Assembly (NCBI GenBank): GCA_022562795.1
Contig: JADFOP010000028.1
Location: 1-27,510 of the forward strand
From: Nitrospinota bacterium
GTDB taxonomy: Bacteria; JADFOP01
Reading direction: 5' to 3'
Length of the DNA: 27,510 nucleotides
In this document: in pieces, positions 1-15,669 of the stretch
Position numbering within the stretch: the first letter of the stretch is position 1
Layout of the letters: each line of letters opens with the position of its first letter
Program-made: the position numbers and the translations under genes
Notes under the pieces: model-generated
Seen by the model: the letters and a program-made list of their open reading frames with translations, nothing else
Database searches by the model: none
What the model was told of the DNA's origin: nothing

Positions 1-52
1 GTAGGGACAGGCCTTGTCCCTGTCCGCGGACAGCCGTAAAGGCCGTCCCTAC
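1..52. repeat. 52-bp palindromic intergenic element (REP-like)
   Basis: The first 52 bases begin GTAGGGAC and end GTCCCTAC. Inside, AGGCCTT faces AAAGGCC and GGGACAGG... faces further GTCC/GGAC blocks, so the element can fold as one long imperfect hairpin. It contains no ORF. It sits just before a second repeat piece (58-83) and before the AT-rich gene pair. It looks like a small dispersed palindrome of the REP/MITE type. The window edge may cut it, and no second full copy is present here. Confidence 0.5.
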
Positions 53-57
53 ACCCC

Positions 58-83
58 GGGTAGTCGGGGTCGCCCCTGACCCC
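58..83 (+). repeat. Half copy of the GGGTAGTCGGGG repeat
   Basis: A 26-base stretch starting GGGTAGTCGGGG and ending CCTGACCCC. It is identical, base for base, to the reverse complement of the right arm (15638-15663) of the inverted repeat 15.5 kb away. It therefore belongs to the same dispersed family, here as a single arm. Confidence 0.7.
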
Positions 84-173
84 AACACGGCCCGTTCTTG
101 CATATTGAGGATGGGCGGAGGGGCCTGGTGGTGAAAGGCCTGGCCTGCGGCGAAGGGGATGATGGGACCGGAT

Positions 174-1028
174 TCAGTCGGCAACATCTTTAGCACTGGC
201 GTCACTTACCCCTCTAAAATTCTGGAGATGTGACTCCGCGAAATTTTCGACCGCTTCATAAAGGGAATCATGTGCGCTATCAACATCTGCCTCAGTCCCC
301 GTTTTCTCATCAAATAAATCAAACGTCATACGAACGAATCCTGCAGCTGTTAACATGTAATCTGGTTCCCCTGGGAGAGAGGGATCAACCGGAATGCCGT
401 GATGACGATGTAGCGGGTTTCGGCATATATCAAGATTACATTTTCCGACATGGTTCCACATACTATGAGTCGTGGAACTAAATGGAGCGTATGCAAAGCG
501 GTGTACATCTATACACTCAGCATCTTCCGCCATTTTCCTGGTATCAACACCAGACCAACTACCAACATTCACTTCGGTTAGAAAGGCGAACCTTTGTGAA
601 TTTAGCCACTCTTCTCTATTCCTAATTAGTGGATGTTCATCGACCTCTCCTTCACCATCAGCCTCTAGTTGAGCCTTCAAGTGTTCTATATATAATTTCT
701 CTTGCCCAAGACCATATGAGATGTACTCCTGTGATCTTTCGAAGGGCTCGCGAAATATCCAAGCGAAAGTTATATATGTATCCGCCATCGTTCTCAAAAC
801 AATAGGAGCAATGTGAGCATTCCAGATTGATGGAGAACCAGCAAGTTGCGTAGCCAATGTTACTTGTCTAGCCATGAGGGCTCCTATCACCTCCTGCATC
901 CGCCTGTTTGCCAAGTTAAGCGGCCAATTATTCCATCTCTCAGCCAGCTCAGTACGGACCATTCGGATGTAGGTTTCAAGAATGTTGTAAAAGTCTTCCA
1001 AAACTTTTCGGTCATCCATGTTACTCAT
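174..1028 (-). CDS. DUF5677-like protein of unknown function
   Basis: About 284 residues, mainly helical. The stretch RTMADTYITFAWIFREPFE followed by a helix rich in E/Y/L, and later APFSSTTHSMWNHV, resemble the conserved blocks of DUF5677 proteins as I remember them: a helical core plus an S..H motif. The C-terminal third has KCNLDICRNPLHRHH, a Cys/His cluster that could bind metal. The start was taken as the ATG at 1028, which overlaps the stop of the upstream gene by 8 bases (ATGAGTAA), so the two are translationally coupled; an ATG three bases upstream is equally possible. Base composition is clearly lower in GC than the neighbouring genes, which suggests transfer. No catalytic function can be assigned. 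A role as an accessory or defence gene is only a guess from the context. Confidence 0.65.
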   Translation of the reverse strand: MSNMDDRKVLEDFYNILETYIRMVRTELAERWNNWPLNLANRRMQEVIGALMARQVTLATQLAGSPSIWNAHIAPIVLRTMADTYITFAWIFREPFERSQEYISYGLGQEKLYIEHLKAQLEADGEGEVDEHPLIRNREEWLNSQRFAFLTEVNVGSWSGVDTRKMAEDAECIDVHRFAYAPFSSTTHSMWNHVGKCNLDICRNPLHRHHGIPVDPSLPGEPDYMLTAAGFVRMTFDLFDEKTGTEADVDSAHDSLYEAVENFAESHLQNFRGVSDASAKDVAD

Positions 1029-1782
1029 CATCCCCACTAATTTCGCATGGTTCAAGTTCCAGACCTCTATTCCAAAAGTATCCTGGCCAAAATGAAGACT
1101 TATCGTAAAAATATTCTCCGAAGAATACATTGACCGTAGCACGAGCTCCACTAGCTATCATCTTTGACTCTAATGTATCTGGAAAATCGGCCACCGCCGG
1201 GAAATTAGCCATAGGGGTGCCTGCCGCGACCTTTAACTTGCCAGTAACAAACGCAACATAAACCGCATTAGCCTGTACACGTGTGGCTGGGGTATCCCAT
1301 CTATCGAAAAGTGTTGAGACTACTTCTTTTAACGCTTCTAGATGTCCTCTGGAGTCCTTAGGTTCAGGTAGTTTCCCCTCAAATAAAAAATTGAGAGGAC
1401 AATCTGGATAGAAAGCACCAAGGGGAATAATTGCTTTTCTCAATGATTCTAAGTGCCTCGATTCTTTAAGCGTTCTTGTTACTACGCTCCTTTGTTCTAC
1501 GGTAAGACTACCGTATGAGCTTGTTGGCGCAAACCAGAGTTTCGGGACCTCGTCAAATGTTTCCACTGCCGCTTTGGCCAAAGATAATGCTAGGTCTGCT
1601 CCTTCCGTGAAACCGAAACGTCTGTTTAAAAGGCCTATCCACAATAGTTCTGGAAGAACGCAATCGGGCCAATTAGCCTCCTCATACTGGCCCAGTTTGT
1701 GAAGAAAGGGGGGCCTAAATCGCTTTCCCACTTGATGATGGTCTGCTAGAATTCTTTTGTTTTCTTTATTTTGTTTACCCAT
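1021..1782 (-). CDS. Conserved-looking hypothetical protein, partner of the DUF5677 gene
   Basis: 253 residues; family not recognised. The N-terminus is basic (MGKQNKENKR...). Next comes a tryptophan-rich block around residues 35-60 (NWPDCVLPELLWIGLLNRRF), then helical segments and an aromatic C-terminus (FWPGYFWNRGLE). There is no signal peptide or membrane segment, so it is probably cytosolic. The stop codon lies inside the start of the following DUF5677-like gene, so both are made from one message as a two-gene unit. A weak AAGGA lies 11 bases before the ATG. The gene is AT-richer than the rest of the window (about 40-45% GC by eye in sampled lines, against well above 60% nearby), consistent with horizontal acquisition. 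Function unknown. Confidence 0.7.
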   Translation of the reverse strand: MGKQNKENKRILADHHQVGKRFRPPFLHKLGQYEEANWPDCVLPELLWIGLLNRRFGFTEGADLALSLAKAAVETFDEVPKLWFAPTSSYGSLTVEQRSVVTRTLKESRHLESLRKAIIPLGAFYPDCPLNFLFEGKLPEPKDSRGHLEALKEVVSTLFDRWDTPATRVQANAVYVAFVTGKLKVAAGTPMANFPAVADFPDTLESKMIASGARATVNVFFGEYFYDKSSFWPGYFWNRGLELEPCEISGDDE

Positions 1783-1997
1783 GAAAGAATTACATCCTTT
1801 TCAAACCATATGCACTCCCGTTCGGCCCATCTCCTCATTCTCGGACTATGTTGGTGACGGTTTGTGCTATTAGAGCTTTATCAGAGAGCGATAATAACGT
1901 CAACGGGTATAACCTCCGACGTAACAGCGCAAGCGCTTTTATAATTTTTTTGAAGACCGGCTTCCGGGGAGGCGTTTCTCCTTCCTCCCCCCACCCG

Positions 1998-2774
1998 CTA
2001 CTTGACCAGGTCGTGGAAAATCCAGCCGGGGCGGCCGTCGCTCAAGCGGACCTTCATCCATCCGTACCGGAGGTGGGATGAAGCCGCCCGAACCGTATCG
2101 CCCCTCTTGAGGGTTGCGGCCACCGGGTAGGCGAGCCCGAAGCCTTCTCGGACGTTGGCCTCCCAGTTGACGACCTGAACCTTCGTGAGCTCCCCGGTGA
2201 GGAAATCAGCGTTGCCCCGCGGGTCCTTTAGCTCGGCGAGCTCCCGCTCCACCTCCCGCGTCACGTTCCTGAGATGCTCGCTACGCTCCTCGCCCCAAAG
2301 CGCGTTGGCGGACACCGCATCGGCGGCCCGCTTGAGGGCCGCCACCGCCCGGGTGAGTCGAAAGACGTCCTCCTTCGTCTCCGGCCGGAGATTCGGCTCG
2401 GCGAAAGATCGGTGGGCCCCGGAGCGGTGGACTATGGCGATGTTTTCGTGGGCCACATCAAAGGTTGGGATGATGGCAACCGCCCGCTGGAAGGCATCGA
2501 GGGCTTCATTCGGCCTCCCCATCCCGGCGTCCAGCACCAGGCCCCTAAGATAGTGGAGGTAAGCGCACTCAGGGGTTGCCGTGAGGCCCTCCTCAACGAT
2601 GGCGAGCCTCACGACGGCTGGCGTGCGAGTCCACTCAAGGGCGGCCGCCCGCTCCGGCTGGCGGGCCAGGGCCTCCTGATAACAGCGGTCCTGGTTTGTC
2701 TCGGCCGCGGAGCCCCCGGACGCCCAGGTCAGCGCAAGGAGGAGAACAACGCCTGCGCGCAAAAACGCCCTCAC
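1998..2774 (-). CDS. Secreted TPR / bacterial SH3 domain protein
   Basis: About 258 residues from the GTG at 2774. That start is preferred over an ATG 33 bases upstream because GAGGAG lies five bases before it and it gives a clean signal peptide (FLRAGVVLLLALTWASGGSAA, cleavage after about residue 24). The mature part has a TPR-like helical pair at about residues 60-110 (YLHYLRGLVLDAGMGRPNEA, ALDAFQRAVAIIPTFDVAHE) and a helical linker. A C-terminal SH3b fold covers about residues 195-258, with NVREGFGLAYPVAATLKRGD and GWMKVRLSDGRPGWIFHDLV typical of peptidoglycan- or ligand-binding SH3b modules. It probably acts in the periplasm or cell envelope. It follows the Lrp-type gene by about 40 bases and is probably co-transcribed with it. 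Substrate unknown. Confidence 0.8.
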   Translation of the reverse strand: MRAFLRAGVVLLLALTWASGGSAAETNQDRCYQEALARQPERAAALEWTRTPAVVRLAIVEEGLTATPECAYLHYLRGLVLDAGMGRPNEALDAFQRAVAIIPTFDVAHENIAIVHRSGAHRSFAEPNLRPETKEDVFRLTRAVAALKRAADAVSANALWGEERSEHLRNVTREVERELAELKDPRGNADFLTGELTKVQVVNWEANVREGFGLAYPVAATLKRGDTVRAASSHLRYGWMKVRLSDGRPGWIFHDLVK

Positions 2775-2812
2775 GAGGGCTCCTCTCTCGATACGCTCCC
2801 GCAACAAGCCGG

Positions 2813-15586: not shown

Positions 15587-15669
15587 GAATTAAACGGGGT
15601 AGTCGGGGTGGCCCCTCACCCCGACACCTTATTAGGCGGGGTCAGGGGCGACCCCGACTACCCTTAATT
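15587..15669. repeat. Long inverted repeat of the GGGTAGTCGGGG family
   Basis: Two 26-base arms, 15597-15622 and 15638-15663, are inverted copies with two mismatches around a 15-base centre. The outer flanks GAATTAA and TTAATTC extend the pairing. The right arm is identical (as reverse complement) to 58-83. There is no ORF inside, so it would be a non-autonomous palindromic element, able to form a cruciform or a very stable RNA hairpin. Confidence 0.8.

Follow-up and report, generated by a model that had tools for sequence, protein, structure and literature searches.

DitA and DitB, when encoded together, make up what we take, from the naming used in PADLOC, to be the Aditi system. Aditi is counted among the newer defence systems (PMC10121019, PMC12926258), and its mechanism is given as unknown (PMC12926258). 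A canonical single DitA of 500 aa (E 1.5e-191) is encoded in the genome G112, where it adjoins DitB (E 2.1e-74) and carries a DUF5677 domain (PF18928), a family without known function. Another group of proteins relevant to this comparison is that of the defence HEPN ribonucleases, helical domains encoded in defence operons and having Rx4-6H as active-site motif (PMC3710099).

The locus described here is placed at one end of the window, by which we mean the whole analysed stretch of 27,510 nucleotides from a Nitrospinota bacterium. Position 1 of the window is the end of its contig (C28) in a draft genome of 2.15 Mb and 84 contigs, and the phylum is represented by 3 genomes in the searched collection. 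Two co-directional genes are found on the minus strand, gene B upstream (1021-1782, 253 aa) and gene A downstream (174-1028, 284 aa), both at the place given in the original prediction. The stop of B and the start of A share the sequence ATGAGTAA (1021-1028, minus strand), giving the predicted overlap of 8 bases, through which the translation of the two genes may be coupled; an alternative in-frame ATG for A, 3 bases earlier at 1031, would give a protein of 285 aa and an overlap of 11 bases. To the right of the pair only housekeeping genes are visible; to its left, the downstream side, the contig breaks off. The window itself shows no known defence gene and no tRNA, and promoter and terminator scans remained at chance level.

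From profile searches, both proteins match the DitA model of PADLOC and neither matches a metabolic family. In detail, residues 10-248 of B align with positions 4-236 of the 486 positions of the profile (E 5.6e-10), and A aligns with positions 306-442 of 486 (E 3.4e-9). Since the two genes match one and the same model collinearly, the pair corresponds to DitA in two pieces, so that the gene initially described as an unknown partner is the N-terminal half of DitA, although no Pfam family is matched by it. The assignment of A, the C-terminal half, as DUF5677-like was confirmed by a match to PF18928 (E 1.5e-19, 71 bits against a curated cut-off of 27.1) that spans only residues 47-195. All 14 A-type sequences match DUF5677, and the DitA profile is matched by 13 of the 13 B-type and by 13 of the 14 A-type sequences; searches of the pair against PHROGs and NCBIfam gave no matches. 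The resemblance to Aditi (PADLOC PDLC03826/PDLC03827) thus consists of both DitA halves, in order and co-directional, of a DUF5677 domain located C-terminally, as it is in canonical DitA, and of the defence-gene neighbourhoods of relatives. The differences are that DitA is here made of two proteins, that DitB was found in none of the nine genomes with a split locus, and that the sequences are distant, B and the DitA of G112 being 25% identical over about 177 residues. By these searches the pair is not a complete Aditi, as neither a single DitA nor a DitB was found.

The split layout is found in nine loci, the window and eight others, distributed over about eight phyla as labelled, and the order B then A is identical in all of them. 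The MAG labels of the other eight are Brocadiaceae, Desulfobacterales, Deltaproteobacteria, Oligoflexia, Actinobacteria, Acidobacteria, Gemmatimonadaceae and Thermoplasmatota; the last label may be a binning error, the contig belonging to the same MAG series as L015. When the nine junctions were compared, B and A were found to overlap by 4 bases (two loci), by 8 (the window and two loci), by 11 or by 23, or to lie 1 base apart, with the start of A uncertain in the Thermoplasmatota MAG. In the closest relative (L014), whose A is 52% identical, B and A likewise share 8 bases, ATGAGTGA where the window reads ATGAGTAA.

Both halves also occur as one protein of 521 aa on a Rhizobium plasmid, and further fused proteins are encoded in Rhizobium multihospitium, in Mesorhizobium, in a Caulobacteraceae MAG and on a viral contig, the last two being incomplete at the 3' end. 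The fused DitA-like proteins of Rhizobiales and their relatives (L004, L021, L022, L024), of 521-527 aa where complete, have the same B and A content as the pair and are about 36-40% identical to it in A, and those of L021, L022 and L024 are likewise DitB-less; they differ from the pair in being encoded by a single gene, whose neighbour can be a HEPN_LA2681 protein, as in a Novosphingobium relative (L025) whose contig breaks off on the B side. Among relatives from the genome scan, B adjoins A or is fused to it in each one whose sequence extends to both sides, and no homologue of either was found apart or in a core position among them, so that none of the outcomes named as refuting the original view occurred. 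The fusions imply that the two halves work together in a single complex, which we regard as likely. A tree of both forms firmly groups the fused alphaproteobacterial sequences and gives no order of split versus fusion. The phage collection contains no relatives of the pair and a second viral scan using different patterns returned nothing; a plasmid search yielded one fused relative and two plasmids with DUF5677.

The DitB profile, which recovered the DitB of G112 as a positive control, found none in the window genome (97% complete), where the contig ends 173 bases past A, none in the eight further genomes with a split locus and none in the genomes of four alphaproteobacterial relatives. The split form therefore appears to be DitB-less, and no third gene is common to the split loci. 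Six of these loci have 5 kb or more of sequence on each flank, and in five of the six PADLOC defence genes lie within about 7 kb. They are type IIG and type III restriction-modification genes in L015, PD-Lambda-4_A, which comes next downstream, plus a TIR protein in L016, PDC-S46 and a cytosine methylase in L018, AbiEi/AbiEii upstream together with an integrase-like recombinase downstream in L019, and a type I methylase in L020; no defence gene was identified near the sixth, L023. A more distant fused relative (L007) adjoins CfrBI. These surroundings give strong, though not quantified, support to a role of the pair in defence, which from the sequences is probable. Of the original view of an uncharacterised mobile pair of defence or toxin type, the defence setting and the pairing of B with A have thus held, whereas the pair is not uncharacterised, being a variant of the known Aditi.

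The base composition of the pair is clearly different from that of every other gene in the window, in agreement with its earlier description as AT-rich. The GC content of the two genes is 0.446 and 0.442, that is 0.44-0.45 against a mean of 0.63 (z about -6.4), the 25 other window genes having a mean of 0.628 with a standard deviation of 0.029; their GC3 values are 0.40 and 0.36, compared with 0.771 and a standard deviation of 0.059 in the same 25 genes, and over GC and GC3 the deviation of the pair ranges from z -6.3 to -6.9. Neither the same-genus genome G002 (85% complete) nor G001 contains the pair. The SH3/TPR-like gene next to the pair (1968-2807, minus strand), a resident gene at the edge of the variable site and outside the system, is retained in G002 with 68% identity, and the homology of G002 to the window stops at about 1968-1984, with different genes beyond, one of them with a GC of 0.41. 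The site is thus variable within the genus, as G002 keeps the neighbouring gene and has other genes past the end of homology. At the corresponding site of a same-genus genome (L029:3413-5289) other small genes of lower GC are observed.

On the other side of the pair, the contig end (1-173) is occupied by dispersed palindromic repeats that lie outside the system, with window positions 1-52 forming a palindrome with 28-nt arms. The presence of repeats on the left had been correctly noted, but they are not special to the module: with 54 matches over the whole draft genome they are ordinary intergenic elements, and their candidacy as a component of the module was rejected. They probably explain the break of the assembly at the contig end. 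The repeat families GTAGGGAC... and CCCGGGTAGTCGGGGTCGCCCCTGACCCC, seen at window positions 1-173, occur also at 15597-15666.

Conservation within A was examined in an alignment of 18 A-type domains including the canonical DitA of L005, with residues numbered from the start at 1031. Wherever the position is present, no substitution is seen at R80, I87, G109, K112, L113, R165, H189, W192, H208 or H211, and all 18 sequences contain H189 and W192; position 84 is occupied by either D or E throughout, and 17 of the 18 retain C203. Residues 189-211 form a conserved His/Cys patch, a portion of which, HSMWNH (residues 189-194), is encoded at 450-467 on the minus strand, and all the invariant residues are intact in the window copy. 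The conserved set of charged residues and histidines suggests an active or ligand-binding site, to judge from the alignment. An AlphaFold model of A (pLDDT 78.8, pTM 0.74, with low confidence around residues 192-198) consists of helices with one short beta-hairpin close to the histidine patch, which agrees with the early description of a Cys/His-rich helical protein, and a model of a fused relative (pLDDT 78.0, pTM 0.61) is almost wholly helical. Foldseek searches of the PDB and of viral models gave no match at E 0.001 for A or for the fused relative, VIA-align gave generic helical-bundle matches only (Z up to 7.4), and a PDB sequence search gave none for A and chance-level matches for B. From such generic matches no fold is named for A, and none is discounted. 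With the defence HEPN ribonucleases A shares a helical character and an association with defence genes, and a HEPN protein stands beside one relative of the pair; it differs from them in having neither a conserved Rx4-6H nor a HEPN profile match, no Pfam HEPN family being matched up to E 10. Membership of A in the HEPN superfamily was considered and finds no support in the motif: among the 18 sequences no invariant R is followed by an invariant H at the spacing of the motif, and with the motif missing the site of A is not a HEPN site.

Taken as a whole, the locus is best read as an Aditi-like anti-phage module that arrived by horizontal transfer and whose DitA, made as two co-translated halves, forms one complex without DitB, and we consider this reading rather likely to be right. 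The pair would probably work like Aditi or like a two-part abortive infection system. B and A, co-translated, would bind each other in one complex with no DitB required; the B half would sense infection or restrain A, the A half would be an enzyme or a ligand-binding effector, and once infection is sensed A would halt the growth of the infected cell. That A is an effector enzyme with B as its regulator is a plausible but less than even proposal. An additional N-terminal HTH of XRE type on the B of L019 fits B as the regulatory half; it is seen in one of the nine split loci only, and no HTH was matched in the window B. A bolder formulation, to be regarded as tentative, makes split DitA a self-sufficient two-protein defence system separate from Aditi, with A as an enzyme of an undescribed helical fold whose Arg/Asp/Lys/Arg/His/His site is held off or triggered by B.

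Other explanations place the meaning of the pair elsewhere. B and A could be a sensor core only, with killing entrusted to a third gene that changes from locus to locus and that would here lie past the contig end. The varied neighbours agree with this, namely DitB in L005, HEPN_LA2681 in L025 and, truncated, in L004, a membrane-like protein in L022 and, immediately upstream in L023, a nuclease-like gene; the split loci, however, have no third gene in common, and several of them (such as L018 and L019) have no third gene clearly in the operon, which makes this idea a doubtful one. Somewhat less likely still is a toxin-antitoxin pair in which B, the antitoxin, and A, the toxin, maintain a mobile element rather than sense phage. 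The overlapping bicistronic operon is a likeness to type II toxin-antitoxin systems, and the antitoxin-first order, the HTH on the B of L019, the AbiE and HigBA-like pairs near relatives and the conserved charged and histidine residues of A can all be cited for it. On the other hand, the window B has no DNA-binding HTH, the proteins, of 253 and 284 aa, are both large, canonical DitA operates with DitB, and canonical DitA and several lineages have the halves fused, an unusual condition for antitoxin and toxin.

The remaining alternatives deny that the two reading frames are an arrangement in their own right. If the pair were a functionless remnant of Aditi, with a frameshifted DitA and a lost DitB, the absence of DitB and the contig end would fit, and a comparable out-of-frame pair does exist in G036. 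Against such decay stand the clean stop/start overlaps of the nine split loci, found in both phases, the open and conserved state of all their halves, the preservation of the invariant residues in the window copy, and the absence of DitB from every split genome, because of which its loss is a trait of the lineage; decay is thus improbable. An error of sequencing or assembly that split one ditA in this MAG, to which the frames one base apart and the A frame open upstream of its start would lend themselves, is the least credible of all and in practice already refuted: the same layout recurs in independent genomes, L014 shares the 8-base overlap, and the upstream extension of the A frame resembles, by eye, neither B nor the fused relatives. 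Since the overlaps differ and occur in both phases, a single sequencing error cannot account for the split, and from these junctions the division of DitA is judged to be real.

The natural split marks where the two halves of DitA meet, and it shows an apparently DitB-less form that is spread across phyla. It also suggests that defence searches requiring full-length DitA together with DitB would overlook the split form. The named DUF5677 residues are targets for mutation, by which the mechanism is directly testable.

Some further features were observed around the relatives. In G036 (L006:558-2032) a DitA-like gene lies in two overlapping frames, with one match running through a TGA, and may be decayed. 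On the viral contig (L013:4209-5597) the fused DitA-like gene stops short in the His patch, near a serine-recombinase-like ORF. In Novosphingobium (L025:768-2330) the gene right after the DitA-like one encodes a HEPN_LA2681 protein (E 1.8e-62), of which a truncated copy is present on the Rhizobium plasmid (L004:9599-10147), with transposase-like genes just downstream. In Gemmatimonadaceae (L023:5098-6117) a 339-aa protein without family match, whose N-terminus is nuclease-like by eye, ends 25 bases before B. Finally, a protein of 216 aa with probable membrane helices, as seen by eye, overlaps a fused DitA-like gene by 4 bases (L022:5553-6203) and is a possible alternative partner.
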